Source: Flammeovirgaceae bacterium (lineage in GTDB: Bacteria > Bacteroidota > Bacteroidia > Cytophagales > Cyclobacteriaceae). From it: a stretch of DNA of 64,000 bases. The stretch spans positions 1 through 64,000 of the forward strand of contig JAJTHV010000105.1 of assembly GCA_021300095.1 (NCBI GenBank). The letters run 5' to 3'. The position numbers and the translations under genes are program-made. Below are positions 54,439 through 61,470 of this stretch, one piece after another. The notes beneath the pieces were generated by a model. That model was not told the DNA's origin. It made no database searches and saw only the letters and a list, made by a program, of their open reading frames with translations. How positions within the stretch are numbered: position 1 is the first letter of the stretch; every line of letters begins with the position of its first letter.

Positions 54439-57400
54439 TTGAGACTCGTCAAGCAAATAAACCTTTATTTTCAAGAGGGCAACTCGGACAAAGTTTACGA
54501 AATAGATCTGTGCGAATCTGGTGACGGATACATTGTCAACTTTCGGTATGGTCGCAGAGGTGCATCGCTGAAAGAAGGAACAAAGACAATTTTTCCGGTA
54601 GCACTGCCGGAAGCTGAAAAAGTGTTTGCGGCCTTGGAACAGGAGAAACGCAAGAAGGGATACACCGCAGCAGGTGAAGCACCATTGGTGATTTCAGCCA
54701 TGCCACGCACTACCTCCAGCGGAATTGATAAAAGACGTAAGGCAATTCTCAAAATTCTGAAAGTAGCAGCTGCAGGTGAAGAGCCCGAAACGTGGCGACT
54801 TTCACGTGTAATTTGGAGAGCCGGTGATTTAAAACTGAAAGAAGCAATTCCTTCGATTCATAAATTAACAGACACTTCAGATTCATTTACGCTTTATTCC
54901 ATCGTGTGGGCCATTGGCCGTTGTGGCTCTGCATCAGATGTTCCGTTATTAAAAACACTTCAGGCTAAACCAGTATTGCCACAACATATCAAGCAACTGA
55001 TTACAGAGGTGTTGCTAAAGCACACAGAAGGTTCAGAGAAAGAGCAGTTACTAAATCAAATCCTCGGAGGCTTGCCATTGCCAATTCAAAAAAATGTTCA
55101 GGAAAAAAATTACAAACTTCTGACCAAGCAATTGCGCGAGTACTTGTTTGAACTGAAAACCACTTCCAACGAATACCTCGTTAACCTCTATCAACTTTCT
55201 CGTCAAGATCAGTCGCTGCACAAGGTGCTCTTGACTATTCTGGAAGAAGTACCCTTGGCTGTGAATTTTTTCAAGCACATACGTCATATTTTTAAGACGT
55301 CTGAAATGCTGGAAGACTATGCTACCTATGCAGTGATCGCAAAAAATATTGAAAAGCGCCCGGGTAATTTTAGTTCTTTCTATTACGAACAAGGTCAAAG
55401 ACAGAACAGTGCATTTACAAATACCACCAAGGGCTACCTGACATCACGCGTGTTGCGTTTTCTTCGCAACTACGGAGAAATGGGTGAGCCAGCCTATACT
55501 GAATTAGCTTCGGAATTATTGTTGGCATTTCGCGATGATCAGGATGCAACCAAACCGTATCAAACAGCTGATGTCAGTTATCACTACAACTCGACCACTC
55601 GTACACATATCCGAGAGGAGAAGATAACCCATTTTGACAGTTATGCTCCTTTTCAAGCGTTTAACTCTATACTTTATAAGAACAGCGCACGCTATCTGCC
55701 TGGCAAACAAGCATGGAAGTGTATAGCACCATTTGTTCCGGGCAACCCCACACCCACTTCGCGTGAAGAAGCGTATCCGCATCTGTGGAATAAAGCTCCG
55801 GAAGAAATTATCGCTTTGCTTGCCAACAGTAAAGCAAATCGAGTGCATGAATTTGCATTGAAAGTTTTTACTGCCAATCCAACATTCGAAGCGCAAGTTG
55901 AAATGCAGCATGTCGTTCAATTTGTGCGTGCGCCATTTTTGTTGACACAACAGCTCGGGTTGACTCTGGCAAGAAAAAAATTCGATCGGTTAGATCCCAA
56001 CAAGGAATTGTTGATTGCCATGTTGGAGAGTAGTCTGGCAGAAGCACGTGAGCAAGCTTTTTCATGGATCGACAACGAACGGAAATTATTACTGAGCGAT
56101 GCCGAATTTGTTGTCAGAATTTTGCTGGTGACAAGAAAAGAAACACATGAGTGGATACGCTCCTTCCTTGCTTCGATTAGCATGGCGCCAGCGCAGAGCG
56201 AGGTGATTGCAGCCAAACTGATTACTCACCTGATCAGCATGGAAATCGAGACAGAAGAAGACCGATTGCTGCTCCGTCAGTTATCGGATACTTTGGTGAA
56301 TGTGTTTTCTTCAACATTGCGAAACATTCACCTGCAGGTGATTCGCGATATGTTCGCGAATCCTTCCGAGGAAATACACGCACTCGCAGGGAAAATCCTG
56401 TTGAAGCATGAAACAAAAGCAGAAGATTTGCCGGACGATTTCCTCGCATTGCTTTTGCAGTCCGGAAATCCATACACACGCGGCATTGGCATATCGTTAC
56501 TAGGTCAATTTTCGGATGCAGCATTGCTGGCCAAAAAAGAAGTATTGATTAGCTTTTGCATTTCACCTTTGGAGGATGTTCGCAGTGCTGTCCGACCAAT
56601 CATCTTCCGTTTGGTGCAATCAACGCCCGACTTTGGTATTACTCTGATTGATCTTTTTGTGCCCGCATTTTTGATGAAAGAATCCTACGAAGGATTGCAC
56701 GAAGATTTATTGAGTTTGTTGGCCAATGAGTTGGGTGGCAGCTTGTCGGCAATCTCGAAAGAGCGTTCATTACGATTGTTGCATTCTAAGTTCAAGTCGG
56801 CTCAGCAATTGGGTTGTATCTTGTTGAAGAAAAATATCAAGGAAGAAGAACTTACTGTAGCTGAGTTGGTGAAGATGGGCAACAACCCTACACAAGAAGT
56901 ACGACTTTATGCGTGGGAAGCCTTCAAGCGAAACAAAGAAAAAGTGCGGGCAGAAAAAGAAGAAGCTTTGAAACTGACCGACTCTTCTTGGGATGATACT
57001 CGCCTTTTCGCATTTGACTTTTTTCGAGAGCAGTTTTCAGAATATGATTGGAATACAGAATTGCTGGTAATGCTTTGTGATAGCGTGCGCGAAGATGTGC
57101 AAGCTTTCGGGCGGGAAATGATTACCCGCTTCTTTGTGGCTGATCAGGGCACTGACTATTTATTGAAGCTCAGTCAACATCCAAATACGAAGGTACAGTT
57201 GTTCACAACAACTTACTTAGAGCAACATGCCACCGATAACTACGAGGTACTTCAATCATTAAAACCTTACTTTATCACGCTGCTCTCACAAGTAAACAAG
57301 GGACGCGTTGCCAAAATAAGAGTAATGGAATTTTTGCGGAAAGAGGCGCTGAAGAATGAGACTAACGCAAATTTTGTTTTAGAAATCCTCAAGCGTGTTT

Positions 57401-57525
57401 CAGCTTCGGTGGCGATTGCCGAAAAGGCACAATGCATTGCGCTGATGCGCGATATTCAAAGTCATTTCGCTGCATTACAGTCGCTGCTCATTGTCAAACC
57501 CTATTCCGACTATATAAAAGCCTAG
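54439..57525 (+). CDS. WGR-domain HEAT/ARM-repeat protein, retron-associated
   Basis: The 1028-residue protein has an N-terminal WGR domain (about 1-75: LVKQINLYFQEGNSDKVYE, then VNFRYGRRGASLKEGTKT), the DNA-end-binding domain known from PARP proteins. The rest is a helical solenoid of HEAT/ARM-type repeats to the end, with segments such as LLILHSKFKSAQ-like helices and NPTQEVRLYAWEAF. No nuclease or enzyme motif is seen. The start is TTG at 54439, placed exactly at the domain boundary; an ATG at 54426 is in another frame. It is followed after 3 bases by the SWIM gene, and both lead into the retron RNA and RT. It is a candidate effector or sensor of the retron. Confidence 0.88.
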   Translation: MRLVKQINLYFQEGNSDKVYEIDLCESGDGYIVNFRYGRRGASLKEGTKTIFPVALPEAEKVFAALEQEKRKKGYTAAGEAPLVISAMPRTTSSGIDKRRKAILKILKVAAAGEEPETWRLSRVIWRAGDLKLKEAIPSIHKLTDTSDSFTLYSIVWAIGRCGSASDVPLLKTLQAKPVLPQHIKQLITEVLLKHTEGSEKEQLLNQILGGLPLPIQKNVQEKNYKLLTKQLREYLFELKTTSNEYLVNLYQLSRQDQSLHKVLLTILEEVPLAVNFFKHIRHIFKTSEMLEDYATYAVIAKNIEKRPGNFSSFYYEQGQRQNSAFTNTTKGYLTSRVLRFLRNYGEMGEPAYTELASELLLAFRDDQDATKPYQTADVSYHYNSTTRTHIREEKITHFDSYAPFQAFNSILYKNSARYLPGKQAWKCIAPFVPGNPTPTSREEAYPHLWNKAPEEIIALLANSKANRVHEFALKVFTANPTFEAQVEMQHVVQFVRAPFLLTQQLGLTLARKKFDRLDPNKELLIAMLESSLAEAREQAFSWIDNERKLLLSDAEFVVRILLVTRKETHEWIRSFLASISMAPAQSEVIAAKLITHLISMEIETEEDRLLLRQLSDTLVNVFSSTLRNIHLQVIRDMFANPSEEIHALAGKILLKHETKAEDLPDDFLALLLQSGNPYTRGIGISLLGQFSDAALLAKKEVLISFCISPLEDVRSAVRPIIFRLVQSTPDFGITLIDLFVPAFLMKESYEGLHEDLLSLLANELGGSLSAISKERSLRLLHSKFKSAQQLGCILLKKNIKEEELTVAELVKMGNNPTQEVRLYAWEAFKRNKEKVRAEKEEALKLTDSSWDDTRLFAFDFFREQFSEYDWNTELLVMLCDSVREDVQAFGREMITRFFVADQGTDYLLKLSQHPNTKVQLFTTTYLEQHATDNYEVLQSLKPYFITLLSQVNKGRVAKIRVMEFLRKEALKNETNANFVLEILKRVSASVAIAEKAQCIALMRDIQSHFAALQSLLIVKPYSDYIKA

Positions 57526-57528
57526 TCC

Positions 57529-59169
57529 ATGGAGTTTAACTACAAGTTTAAAGGAGATACTTCAGTTGGGGGCAATGCCCATGCAACGAATATGAGTTTT
57601 GCTCCCGATGTGTTGCGCGATCCTACGTATTTCTCTGGCTACCTAAACAAACACATTCCATTTCGCGAAGCTATTTCAGCGCTGCATGATATTGTGGTTT
57701 CTGATTTTCGATTTAAGCCAAAAGATAAATCAGATTACAAAGCGTGGGCGCAGCAACAGGAAGATATTTGGTTGGCCGAGTACATTCGCAGTTCGGCTGA
57801 TGTTGAACTTAAGTTGAGAAGTATTCGCGATGAACTGGAAGTGATTCGAAAGCAGAAGGACGAGATCAGCGGCCCGTTTTACAAAGCAAGAAAAAAATAT
57901 TTTGACTATCTCTATTCCGCCAACCGCGATGCATGGATTGTATTAGATCCTGTGATTACCGTTCACCCGGATGAATTGTTCTTCGAATGTTTTAGTCAGG
58001 ATGAATCATCGTATGGTAAGTTGGGGTGCAACTATAATGTCTTCAATAAACTGAGTGAGTTCAAATGTGGTACTACCAACATTGATTACTCATCAGACTT
58101 GTATCAGGAGTTCCAAAAAATTCGTGAGTATAAAGAAACGCACTTTGCCATTGATCCTTCTGGATTTGAAGTGCAAACCACACGGGAAGAAAGTTACAAA
58201 GAAGTGAAGATTGATGTGCCGGCCAGTTGGGTGCGCGGCTTTTTGCAGGTAAGTTCAGCAATGACGCTTCCGGCTGCCAAATTTGAATTGCATCCGATGG
58301 ATGTCTACAATATTTGCTTTATGCTTCGCAGGCATAAGGAAAAAGAAGGCCCACGATCAATTCGTTGGATATTGAAACCCGGTGAGCCGGTGAAACTTAT
58401 TTTCGAGCCGTGGAATTTTGAAGTAAAATGTCCCCGTTCCATCTACACTGGAAATGTAGCACGCGAAATTCGGATTTGGGGAAGAAGAAGATTGCTCTTG
58501 CTAGAGCGATTGATTCCGATTGCCCAGTCATTTCATGTGGTGCTTCTCGGTTCCGGTCTACCTTCATTTTACATCGCAGATTTAGGCGACATGAATTTCA
58601 CGTTGGGGCTTTCCGGCTGGACGGCAAACGATTGGTCGCGATTGGGTAATTTTGATTTGCTCGCACCACGTCAACAAACGGATAGTATGACCATGCAAAA
58701 AGTGTATTCAGGATTGCGGGAAAAATGGGTTGAAAAACCAGAGACTCTCGCTACACGCTTGCAGTTAGATCAAAGTGTGGTGCTCGGTGCGCTTGCCGCG
58801 TTTACACAAACCGGTCGTGTAATCTATGATATTAATCAAAGCGCTTACCGTATTCGAGAGTTATCGCGTGAAGCGTTGCCAATGGAAGAGTTGCGATTTG
58901 CCAATCCACGCGAGGATGCGGCCACTCGTTTTGTACTGACTAAAAATATAGTGAATAGGTCAGCAACGGTAACTCCCGAGGGCATGACAAAACTGAATGG
59001 AACCGTGCGCGATAAGGATCATTCTTTTCAGGCGGAGTTGATCATTGATAAAGACGAGCGAGCGTTGAAAGGAAAATGTACGTGCAATTTTTATCAGCAA
59101 AATAAAATGATGCAAGGTCCATGCGAACACATGTTGGCATTGAGAATAGCGCAGCGTGAAATGAAGTAA
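57529..59169 (+). CDS. Winged-helix SWIM zinc-finger protein, retron-associated
   Basis: The 546-residue protein has a large N-terminal alpha/beta region without a known family, a predicted winged helix at about 400-450 (LATRLQLDQSVVLGALAAF then TGRVIYDINQSAYRI) and a C-terminal SWIM zinc finger, KCTCNFYQQNKMMQGPCEHM (about 517-536), with the CxCx(n)CxH ligands. SWIM domains bind DNA or proteins. The gene lies 3 bases after the WGR-HEAT gene and 130 bases before the retron RNA. The pair, together with the RT, matches the arrangement I recall for type XIII retrons (ARM + WHSWIM). Molecular role is not known. Confidence 0.88.
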   Translation: MEFNYKFKGDTSVGGNAHATNMSFAPDVLRDPTYFSGYLNKHIPFREAISALHDIVVSDFRFKPKDKSDYKAWAQQQEDIWLAEYIRSSADVELKLRSIRDELEVIRKQKDEISGPFYKARKKYFDYLYSANRDAWIVLDPVITVHPDELFFECFSQDESSYGKLGCNYNVFNKLSEFKCGTTNIDYSSDLYQEFQKIREYKETHFAIDPSGFEVQTTREESYKEVKIDVPASWVRGFLQVSSAMTLPAAKFELHPMDVYNICFMLRRHKEKEGPRSIRWILKPGEPVKLIFEPWNFEVKCPRSIYTGNVAREIRIWGRRRLLLLERLIPIAQSFHVVLLGSGLPSFYIADLGDMNFTLGLSGWTANDWSRLGNFDLLAPRQQTDSMTMQKVYSGLREKWVEKPETLATRLQLDQSVVLGALAAFTQTGRVIYDINQSAYRIRELSREALPMEELRFANPREDAATRFVLTKNIVNRSATVTPEGMTKLNGTVRDKDHSFQAELIIDKDERALKGKCTCNFYQQNKMMQGPCEHMLALRIAQREMK

Positions 59170-59258: not shown

Positions 59259-59266
59259 TATTTTTG
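59259..59266 (+). promoter_or_regulatory. Candidate -7 box upstream of the retron RNA
   Basis: TATTTTTG matches TAnnTTTG and lies 32 bases before the a1 segment, in an AT-rich stretch. It lacks a TTG at the expected upstream distance. It could start a separate msr-msd/RT transcript in addition to read-through from the WGR-SWIM genes. Confidence 0.35.
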
Positions 59267-59298
59267 AAATTATAAATATTAAAATTAGTTTTAACCTG

Positions 59299-59518
59299 GT
59301 AGCAGACGAGGGTATTAAGACTTGCAACCCGGGCGGTGTATCACCGTCCTTGTACACAGCTTGCTAACGCGCCACTGGCCCGTTCTTAACTGTGCGATCC
59401 TGCAACCTACACACTATTTCCGGTGCGAATTCCGGGAATTGAAATAATGTGTAGGTTGCGTCTCGCTGGAGTTGACCGCTCCAGTCCTGAGTATGACGAA
59501 GTGTACCCTCGCTGCTAC
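59299..59518 (+). ncRNA. Retron msr-msd noncoding RNA
   Basis: The 220-base region directly before the RT gene has complementary ends: a1 (59299-59314, GTAGCAGACGAGGGTA) pairs with a2 (59504-59518, TACCCTCGCTGCTAC) over 15 pairs with one bulged A. Inside, two msr hairpins can form: GGGCGGTG-TAT-CACCGTCC (59331-59349, one G-U pair) and AACGCGCC-ACT-GGCCCGTT (59366-59384). The msd is a long 19-base hairpin with one mismatch, arms 59402-59420 and 59441-59459 around a 20-base loop; a smaller CTGGAG/CTCCAG hairpin is at 59466-59484. The RT start follows a2 by 14 bases. The first unpaired G after a1 (59319) is a candidate branch point. The RNA would be the template and primer for msDNA. Confidence 0.9.
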
Positions 59519-59532
59519 TTTTTTTATGACCT

Positions 59533-61029
59533 ATGGCCGATTCACAATCTACGCGTCAGCAATTATACGATCGAATTAAGAATTCTTCGAAAGATGCGGT
59601 CGTGCTGGAAGAAATGAAGCGTCTGGGCTTCTGGGCAAAAAATGAAAGTGCCCCTTCACTACCGGAAATTCTAATTCAGAAAGAAGCGGCACTCGTTCAA
59701 GAGTTGCGACAACTGACAGAACAGCAGCAAAAATTAAAAGACAAGCAACAACTATTAAAAGAAGTTCGCAAAGCACGATTGGAAAAATCACGTGCGAAGC
59801 GGGAAGAAAATAAGAAACTCCGTAAAGAAGCACGCGAAGCAAAAGCAGCACGCTGGAAGGAGAAGAAAGAAAAAGATATTGTTTATTTAGGTGCGAATGT
59901 ATCAGGTGGTTTATCTCACACAGCCAGTGATGCAACTTTGCTTGGCAAACATCAGTTGCCAATTTGGAATTCGGTAGAAGAACTCGCTCGCGACATGAAA
60001 GTAAAAGTGGGTGAGTTACGATTTTTAGGATTTAACCGTGCCGTCAGTAAAGTCAATCACTACAAACGATTTTATATTCCTAAAAAAACGGGAGGCAAGC
60101 GCTTGATCTCAGCACCGATGCCTCGTTTGAAAACGGCTCAAACTTGGATTTTAGAAACGATCTTGAATAAAGTGGCGCCAAGCGAACAAGCGCACGGCTT
60201 TGTGTTAAAGCGCTCGATCGTGAGCAATGCATTGCCGCACGTAAAAGCCGATGTAGTGATCAACATTGATCTGAAAGATTTTTTTCCTTCTATTCATTAT
60301 CCGCGCGTGAAAGGCGTGTTTCAATCACTTGGATACTCTGAACAATTAGCTACACTTTTTGGATTGATTTGTACTGAACCGGATTGCGATACGGTGGAGT
60401 TGGATGGGACTACGTACTATGTTTCGAACTCGGAAAGATTTTTACCGCAGGGAGCGCCTACCAGTCCTGCCATTACCAATATCCTTTGTCGCAAGTTAGA
60501 TGCGCGGTTAAAAGGCATTTCGACTAAACTGAATTTCACCTACACGCGCTATGCCGATGACCTTACTTTTTCAACATCGGGCGAGCATGTAAATAAAACA
60601 AAGACGCTGCTCGGGTTTATTAAGAAAATTATTCGCGAAGAAGGTTTAGTGATTCATCCGGATAAGCTGCGCGTGCAACGCAAAGGAGCCCGCAAAGAAG
60701 TGACGGGTTTGGTAGTAAACGATAAACCTTCCATTGCTGCCAAAGAGTTGGATAAATTCAGAGCATTGATTTATCAAATTGAGAAAGACAAAACCTTGCA
60801 GGGCAAGCATTGGAAAAACTCTCCGCACCTGCTCGCCTCTATGAAAGGCTATGCGAATTTTGTTGCGATGGTTGATCCTGCTAAAGGAAAACCATTGGTG
60901 CTGCGCGTGAATAAAATTCTGGATGAACACGGCTATAAACATGTGATCAAGCATAAGCCAAAGCCAAAAGTTGTTGCTGCTTCAGAGCAACCTGTTCCTG
61001 CAAAGAAACCGTGGTGGAAATTTTGGTAA
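59533..61029 (+). CDS. Retron reverse transcriptase
   Basis: The 498-residue protein has an unusual N-terminal extension of about 125 residues, with a very basic coiled-coil-like segment near 55-115 (LEKSRAKREENKKLRKEARE), before the RT domain. The RT shows the retron-specific NALPH (NAxxH, about 232-236), the catalytic NIDLKDFFPSI (about 244-254), QGAPTSPAITN (about 306-316), the active site YADDLTF (near 340) and the VTGL motif (about 390-393). It ends with KKPWWKFW. Such enzymes use the msr-msd RNA to make branched RNA-DNA (msDNA). The ATG at 59533 is the only sensible start. The RNA just upstream is its template. Confidence 0.96.
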   Translation: MADSQSTRQQLYDRIKNSSKDAVVLEEMKRLGFWAKNESAPSLPEILIQKEAALVQELRQLTEQQQKLKDKQQLLKEVRKARLEKSRAKREENKKLRKEAREAKAARWKEKKEKDIVYLGANVSGGLSHTASDATLLGKHQLPIWNSVEELARDMKVKVGELRFLGFNRAVSKVNHYKRFYIPKKTGGKRLISAPMPRLKTAQTWILETILNKVAPSEQAHGFVLKRSIVSNALPHVKADVVINIDLKDFFPSIHYPRVKGVFQSLGYSEQLATLFGLICTEPDCDTVELDGTTYYVSNSERFLPQGAPTSPAITNILCRKLDARLKGISTKLNFTYTRYADDLTFSTSGEHVNKTKTLLGFIKKIIREEGLVIHPDKLRVQRKGARKEVTGLVVNDKPSIAAKELDKFRALIYQIEKDKTLQGKHWKNSPHLLASMKGYANFVAMVDPAKGKPLVLRVNKILDEHGYKHVIKHKPKPKVVAASEQPVPAKKPWWKFW

Positions 61030-61146: not shown

Positions 61147-61470
61147 ATGGGAAAATTTGTTATCAGCACACGTACAAACGGAGATTTTCAATTCAATCTG
61201 AAGGCCGACAATGGTCAGGTAATTTTAACAAGCCAGGGTTACACTACGCGCGCAGCCTGCGAAAATGGCATTGAATCAGTGCGTACCAATGCGACAGATG
61301 ATGCGCGCTATGAACGCAACCGTTCGGCCAATGGCAAAGATTACTTTAATTTAAAAGCAGCCAATGGCCAAGTTATAGGTTCGAGCGAAATGTACGAAAG
61401 CACCGCAGCCATGGAAAATGGAATTGCTTCAGTAAAAAAGAATGCGCCTGATGCAACGGTGGAAGGTTAA
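61147..61470 (+). CDS. yegP: YegP family protein (two DUF1508 repeats)
   Basis: The 107-residue protein consists of two copies of the DUF1508/YegP module: residues about 1-52 (FQFNLKADNGQVILTSQGY, ENGIESVRTNA) and 55-107 (YFNLKAANGQVIGSSEMYES, ENGIASVKKNA). The fold is a small beta-alpha unit whose role is unknown. It lies 117 bases after the retron RT, on the same strand, but it is a common housekeeping-type gene in Bacteroidota, so a functional link with the retron is not implied. A terminator follows at 61507. Confidence 0.93.
   Translation: MGKFVISTRTNGDFQFNLKADNGQVILTSQGYTTRAACENGIESVRTNATDDARYERNRSANGKDYFNLKAANGQVIGSSEMYESTAAMENGIASVKKNAPDATVEG

Follow-up and report, generated by a model that had tools for sequence, protein, structure and literature searches.

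Nucleotides 59299 to 59518 of the window, by which we mean the whole 64,000-nucleotide stretch of Flammeovirgaceae bacterium DNA analyzed here, are in our reading the template RNA of a chromosomal type XIII retron, and we put the probability of this reading, together with the course of events proposed below, at roughly 0.88. The RNA is structured, is conserved among relatives, and is associated with type XIII genes; it is bounded by a1 and a2 strands and has msr and msd hairpins between them, as the template RNA of a retron does. The RNA model, the tandem and trans RNAs, the predicted clamp-like fold of one partner protein, and the C-terminal peptide of the RT come from the present computation. 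Our literature search returned nothing on the RNA or mechanism of type XIII, on tandem retron RNAs, or on a retron clamp. In PMC11953036, PADLOC type XIII is named once in Variovorax, as an annotation, and the words XIII, SWIM, and WGR are absent from the main text of PMC12548924. PADLOC includes msr-msd models, according to PMC9252829.

The type XIII locus

A WGR gene, a SWIM gene, the RNA, and an RT gene follow one another in the window, all on the plus strand and in a compact operon order. The WGR_XIII protein (54439-57525, +) consists of a WGR domain and a long HEAT solenoid and is matched by PADLOC WGR_XIII with an E value of 0 and by the Pfam families WGR and HEAT_2. The SWIM_XIII protein (57529-59169, +; PADLOC SWIM_XIII, E = 2.8e-238) is laid out as a two-domain fold predicted to resemble the PCNA clamp (about residues 34-369), a helical part, and a C-terminal SWIM zinc finger. 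The type XIII retron reverse transcriptase (59533-61029, +) matches PADLOC RT_XIII with E = 3.9e-187 and 620.9 bits, the type XIII profiles for RT, SWIM, and WGR all having E < 1e-180 in PADLOC. YADD and VTG are visible in its translation, which is that of a retron-clade RT with an intact catalytic motif, and the closest solved structures by sequence are those of the Retron-Eco1/Ec86 RT (7v9x and 8qbk; E = 7.3e-45 for Ec86). With an RT_XIII gene that has SWIM_XIII and WGR_XIII as neighbors, the locus belongs to the type XIII retrons, a class that reportedly goes back to the classification of Mestre et al. 2020. In the window's own genome, PF00078 is matched once and the RNA is present as a single copy.

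A promoter-like element, TTTTTG-N19-TAGTTTTA (59261-59294, +), lies ahead of a1. It was recognized by sequence, judged against the Bacteroidota consensus, and a similar block can be seen by eye in Cytophagales relatives; no sigma-70-like site was found. Immediately downstream of the RT gene is a DUF1508 gene (61147-61470), which is also present in the near-identical genome L024 and was not seen in the other loci of the neighborhood comparison. An alternative gene order, in which the RNA or RNAs and the RT come first and WGR and/or SWIM lie downstream, is found in L029, L030, G463, G425, and G406.

Fold of the RNA in the window

The minimum free energy (MFE) of the segment 59299-59518 is -97.4 kcal/mol, compared with -64.0 (SD 4.7) for shuffled sequences (z = -7.10; 0 of 200 as good). 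The a1 strand (59299-59315, +) and the a2 strand (59503-59518, +), the latter followed by a T run at 59519-59525, are apparent both in the sequence and in the MFE fold, and a1 also from the pairing of own and swapped partners described below. The first-pass annotation, which was made from the letters of the window, had described this match as extending over 15 positions with a single bulge, and it is present as described: 59299-59314 and 59504-59518 form 15 Watson-Crick pairs with a bulged A at 59306, to which a G-U pair (59315-59503) is added. The stem is extended by P0, whose 5' strand ACUU (59320-59323, +) has its partner in AAGU (59499-59502, +) in the consensus structure; the first of these pairs, at the foot of the stem, covaries among C-G, U-A, and A-U.

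Inside this frame are an msr hairpin, P1 (59331-59349, +), which is supported by covariation and has a UAU/GAU/UUU-type loop, and a long msd stem (59374-59485, +), which is taken from the consensus structure. The basal helices of the msd are 59374-59378:59481-59485, 59381-59385:59474-59478, 59388-59391:59470-59473, and 59394-59397:59463-59466. Above them are the 5' arm (59402-59420, +), hypervariable among relatives, and the complementary 3' arm (59441-59459, +), each of 19 nt and with one mismatch, a C-A at 59414/59447; the arm length and the single mismatch are as the first-pass annotation had them. An apical hairpin (59428-59440, +), in which four of five pairs have compensatory changes, closes the stem. 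The MFE fold differs from the consensus in having a second msr hairpin (59355-59394) and a local 3' hairpin (59465-59472:59478-59485). No Rfam family matched the RNA at its gathering score, and the sole match in a relaxed Rfam search of the region was to an miRNA far below threshold (18.9 bits against a cutoff of 70).

Covariation and consensus structure

The alignment A2, of 29 copies, has 92.8% of cells paired and compensatory changes in 41 of 50 pairs; 0 of 500 shuffles reached as high on any of five measures, and slid structures paired 36-43% of cells. A2 is a free MAFFT alignment, but the structure was predicted from it and the shuffles ignore relatedness. The alignment A3 (68 copies, 62 distinct rows) has 95.7% of cells paired and compensatory changes in 44 of 50 pairs, counts that lean towards the structure because A3 was fitted to the model; one of its five measures, the number of further pair types, was not above the shuffles, 389 of 500 being as high. 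Together with the low folding energy, the compensatory changes bear out the structured msr-msd RNA that had been read at this position, and we regard the msr-msd reading as supported.

The consensus consists of the foot step C/A/U-CUU:AAG-G/U/A, one msr hairpin, a stretch with little pairing, and a single long msd stem. Two msr hairpins had been proposed. The first, 59331-59349, is strongly conserved, with 99.1% of cells paired and compensatory changes in seven of eight pairs in A2. Of the second, only the inner core of five pairs stands (59368-59373:59377-59382, within 59368-59382, +; 88.3% of cells paired, double changes in three pairs); its outer pairs are mostly unconserved, being present in 10 to 23 of 27-29 copies, with one pair in 29 of 29. 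The local 3' hairpin 59465-59472:59478-59485 is likewise patchy (7 to 28 of 29 copies) and was rejected. A single long msd hairpin had also been proposed, and the hairpin itself holds; its extent does not, the stem being longer, with a long-range base that reaches 59374/59485. The nine pairs of this base (59374-59378:59481-59485 and 59381-59385:59474-59478) are paired in 94.6% of cells, and six of them show double changes. Since the core of the second hairpin and the msd base share bases, the two are mutually exclusive, and the msd base has the stronger support. Because the small competing hairpin is also conserved, one may guess that the RNA passes through two states, perhaps one before it is copied and one afterwards.

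An a1/a2 stem without covariation across homologs had been set beforehand as the observation that would speak against the RNA, and covariation was found. In 65 copies (near-duplicates L008, L010, and L021 left out), a1 and a2 pair with a mean of -26.0 kcal/mol within their own locus and -13.4 kcal/mol when the 5' strand of one locus is combined with the 3' strand of another, and for the window 0 of 64 swapped partners were as good. Weak a1/a2 pairing, in which 11 to 50 of 62-64 swapped partners were as good, occurs mostly in AT-rich copies (L030, L061, one copy of L062, L067, L072, L074, L075, and one copy of L076); in both L074 copies and one L076 copy the a1 windows are displaced because the model matches start about 20 nt late.

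Distribution among relatives

One scan of genome contigs gave 26 distinct loci, and whole-genome searches added more. Records whose titles name members of the Bacteroidota, Planctomycetota, Acidobacteriota, and Verrucomicrobiota have this RNA in the same place, between SWIM and RT. On a 2.8-Mb replicon of Methylobacterium bullatum, it also lies upstream of an RT match that is nearly full-length, covering 98% of the query. A covariance model of the RNA, built from 29 copies, gave 68 matches in 54 of 78 sources, the 54 including the training copies and the near-duplicates window/L008, L002/L010, L020/L021, L005/L056, and L012/L070. The model had no match in 16 non-XIII RT loci (L034-L049). The other eight unmatched sources are the partial contigs L024 and L027, the loci L051, L052, and L066, in whose genomes the RNA is found at another place, and the subclade-B loci L033, L077, and L078.

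Among 390 genomes of the order, the RNA was found in 29, RT_XIII in 41, and both in 28, so that the RNA is present in 28 of 41 RT_XIII genomes compared with 1 of 349 genomes without a detected RT_XIII; the whole-genome RNA searches, over 40 genomes, lost some weak matches. The sole RNA-only genome, G491, is 72% complete and is a member of the genus with split loci. The 13 RT_XIII genomes of the order without an RNA match have RT scores of at most 528 bits, against at least 558 bits for the rest. The nine of these 13 genomes that were examined form, with G280, a clade of their own on the RT tree (subclade B; 10 loci, support 100/100). The RT tree omits L008, L010, L021, L024, and repeat fetches of split loci, as does the tail count given below; it further omits L033, L077, and L078, which have the same genes as L129, L122, and L121, and the broken or split RT frames of L012, L070, and L025.

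Subclade B comprises L121-L130 (G484, G433, G558, G471, G398, G521, G446, G533, G280, and G566). RT and SWIM are far apart in several of its genomes; a SWIM gene is present somewhere in 44 of 45 RT_XIII genomes searched, and subclade B is among the keepers of RT and SWIM. In its ten loci, no candidate RNA was seen by eye near the RT and the RNA model gave no significant match, one of the model searches having been run with stricter filters; one match, in L125, had E = 0.13. Six peptide patterns found no RT relative in viral contigs, and none of the phage records covers 80% of the RT in one place.

Tandem and trans copies with variable arms

Between relatives, the msd arms are hypervariable yet remain complementary. 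Two or three tandem RNAs are present in 12 of 54 sources, and of the 16 within-locus pairs, 15 are less alike in the arms than in the scaffold; one L061 pair, for instance, differs at 20 of 26 arm positions and at 1 of 141 scaffold positions. A second L061 pair departs from this (1/26 in the arms, 6/141 in the scaffold), and in L014 and L062 the scaffolds of the tandem copies are also strongly different (29-43%). Between some genomes the arms are better kept than the scaffold, with differences of 0/27 against 14/126 for L076/L073 and 2/27 against 14/145 for L075/L071, and for this reason the arms seem to be persistent types and not filler that is free to vary. When mapped on the RT tree, the tandem label changes seven times, six of the changes being forced by well-supported branches. 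In the Saprospiraceae locus L014 (1633-2686), three template RNAs have longer and strongly diverged msd stems, and a possible fourth, partial RNA was seen by eye before the RT, where the model has no match.

Enrichment of palindromes in the arms was considered and set aside (p = 0.09 for 4-mers, 0.17 for 6-mers, and 0.016 for 8-mers; 71 arms in 52 clusters). ACTA, CTAC, and TACC are over-represented in the arms, from which we claim nothing, as the shuffles ignore relatedness.

The RNA also occurs away from the RT. In G428 and G415 the RT is apart from WGR and SWIM, a WGR-SWIM-RNA arrangement lies about 65 kb distant, and there is an additional intact RNA with none of the WGR, SWIM, and RT genes in the 17 kb around it. 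Intact RNAs with none of these genes within 17 kb (L113:8418-8603 and L117:8307-8492) have the same neighbors in two species, and their arms contain ACCGGT and are unlike those of the SWIM-linked copy. G464 has the RT, an intact RNA, and the SWIM gene each on a contig of its own.

msd-only fragments and the possible limits of the template

The genomes G428, G415, and G491 were searched with the msd, and G428 and G415 then with the whole 787-nt region as query. Besides full copies, the matches in query coordinates were 342-474 (97%), 391-469 (100%), 410-481 (99%), 352-391 (100%; its flanks agree between G428 and G415), 358-410 (77%), and 354-379 (96%); the remaining hit, 519-549, is inside the query locus itself. 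All the fragments fall within 342-481 of the query, the closing AAGG being at 484-487. The isolated msd-only fragments of 97-100% identity are at L145:376-508, L139:295-373, L140:264-335, L141:332-371, and L142:290-329, and it is possible that they are insertions of RT-DNA. If so, their confinement to the msd would make the template run from about 59361 to about 59498 of the window (+), on the evidence of a single genus; the 5' limit of this predicted reverse-transcribed segment is aligned from the G428 and G415 fragments, and the 3' limit is set just 5' of the second P0 strand.

Another explanation is that the fragments are ordinary duplications of DNA or decayed full copies and carry no information on reverse transcription. 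In its favor, L118, from a different genome, is a degenerate copy with its flanks included, two of the fragment matches are short or weak (L143, 77%; L144, 26 nt), L145, the sole fragment tried, yielded no empty site, and 40 of the 47 first-look candidates in G428 were scored. However, the fragments of 133, 79, 72, and 40 nt (97-100% identical) have sharp ends, and all stay within 342-481. We therefore consider duplication or decay unlikely, albeit the most serious of the competing explanations, and retain RT-DNA insertion as the possible origin. The window's own genome had no msd fragments: apart from the locus and the self-match of its hairpin, there was a single 75% match, to query positions 174-238, which precede a1. 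For genus g206, six genomes were searched, with 40 first-look candidates scored in each; the off-locus matches were weak or short there and scattered along the query.

Predicted branch site and priming

The first-pass annotation had named G59319 as a candidate branch G. This position is A in L002, L004, L005, and L007 and is thus unconserved. G59324 (+), in contrast, is invariant in alignments A1 and A2, lies directly 3' of P0, and is inside an invariant CUUGC motif. We suggest that G59324 is more likely than G59319 to be the branch (priming) guanosine; a conserved G beside a1/a2 is what a retron has, and G59324 would serve as the primer. In Retron-Eco1, the priming G is immediately 3' of a1 and a UUU loop is the recognition site of the RT, as stated in PMC11754653, and the same architecture is given in PMC8989520.

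It could be argued that a retron-like RNA is copied here without 2'-5' branching, as in defense-associated RTs with other priming, given that the UAGC priming context of Eco1 is absent and the candidate context is CUUGC. This is improbable, since the RT scores as a retron RT against both PADLOC and the PDB and the conserved G follows the closing stem directly, in retron-like fashion. That the RNA is instead a structured leader which regulates or protects the RT mRNA without being reverse transcribed would suit its place just upstream of the RT start codon, the T run after a2, and the switch-like competition of the small alternative hairpin with the msd base, but is very hard to reconcile with RNAs that lie away from the RT, about 65 kb off after SWIM or with no WGR, SWIM, or RT in 17 kb, with genomic fragments restricted to the msd, and with tandem copies that mostly share a common scaffold and have different arms.

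Partner proteins and the RT tail

The AF2 model of SWIM_XIII was built from 17 sequences and has a pLDDT of 63 and a pTM of 0.50, with low confidence in the N-terminal half. Its best Foldseek match is PCNA (E = 3.2e-7). Residues 34-369 align to human PCNA (3p87_A) in VIA-align with a Z of 17.0, which clearly exceeds the background Z that the tool states, and an rmsd of 3.1 over 221 residues at 10% identity; the best 50 matches listed are all PCNA, except for one 9-1-1 clamp. The sequence searches (Pfam and PDB) gave no match to PCNA, and the likeness therefore stands on this moderate model. In the model, of mean pLDDT 63, the protein is predicted to have the two-domain fold of a clamp. The AF2 model of WGR_XIII (pLDDT 87.7) has the WGR domain on a HEAT solenoid, and its structure search gave only generic HEAT-solenoid matches. 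Pfam detected no toxic enzyme domain in either partner protein.

The RT ends in the peptide KKPWWKFW (61003-61026, +), which follows a variable linker. WW is present within the last 14 residues in 45 of 51 RNA-linked RTs, a count that excludes the split loci L051 and L052 (no WW) and L066 (WW) and keeps near-identical rows such as L005/L056; those without it are L025 (split frame), L031, L032, L060, L063, and L079. In the last of these, the Methylobacterium bullatum RT (L079:8001-9464), the frame runs into a hydrophobic, arginine-rich C-terminal end and not into a WW peptide. The tail is found in 0 of 10 distinct subclade-B RTs, in whose ten genomes the RNA model is also empty. A terminal aromatic peptide together with a clamp-like partner suggests docking of the RT on the SWIM protein, and WWKFW could be a client peptide that docks on SWIM_XIII as clients do on a clamp.

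Proposed course

We propose that transcription of the RNA begins a short way before a1 and that a1/a2 and the short CUU:AAG step close its base. The RT would prime from the 2'-OH of G59324 and copy from about 59498 back to about 59361, and the product would be an RT-DNA of roughly 138 nt, built around a single long, imperfect hairpin that has a variable pair of arms. The particle of RT, RNA, and DNA is probably tethered through the C-terminal WWKFW of the RT to the clamp-like SWIM protein and probably forms, with the WGR-HEAT protein, a phage-responsive unit. As a working idea, the clamp might be released from, or loaded by, the RT-DNA. An anti-phage role is probable by analogy with the retron class, and the priming site, the docking, and the trigger are likewise drawn from what is known of the family or from a model.

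A more far-reaching proposal joins several of these elements: SWIM would be a bacterial PCNA-like clamp on which the RT docks through a C-terminal WW-x-aromatic peptide, tandem and trans hairpin DNAs with diversified arms on a constant scaffold would provide a small repertoire of baits for one RT and clamp, and RT-DNA would occasionally be inserted into the host genome. We offer this combination tentatively and expect that it is rather more apt to fail than to hold as a whole. A PCNA-like clamp partner, if true, would link retrons to replication-clamp biology, and arrays of template RNAs with diversified arms, if true, would give retrons a novel means of changing what they detect. The covariation-backed RNA model, with its predicted branch site, template limits, and partner peptide, makes the type XIII class directly testable.

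Comparison with known systems

The locus in the window is closest to the type XIII retron as described by the PADLOC profiles RT_XIII, SWIM_XIII, and WGR_XIII, all three of which match very strongly in a compact operon order. Retron-Eco1 (Ec86) is alike in its a1/a2 ends, the conserved G after a1, the msr hairpin with a short loop, and the msd hairpin. However, the RT in the window has about 125 extra residues at the N terminus, residue 16 of Ec86 corresponding to residue 141, and the C-terminal WWKFW; the motif at the predicted priming site is CUUGC here and UAGC in Eco1, and the msd stem is longer here. In place of the effector that is the partner in Eco1, there are a clamp-like protein, as predicted, and a WGR-HEAT protein. 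Compared with the PCNA sliding clamp, SWIM_XIII has a similar predicted fold, to which an extra helical insertion and a SWIM finger are added.
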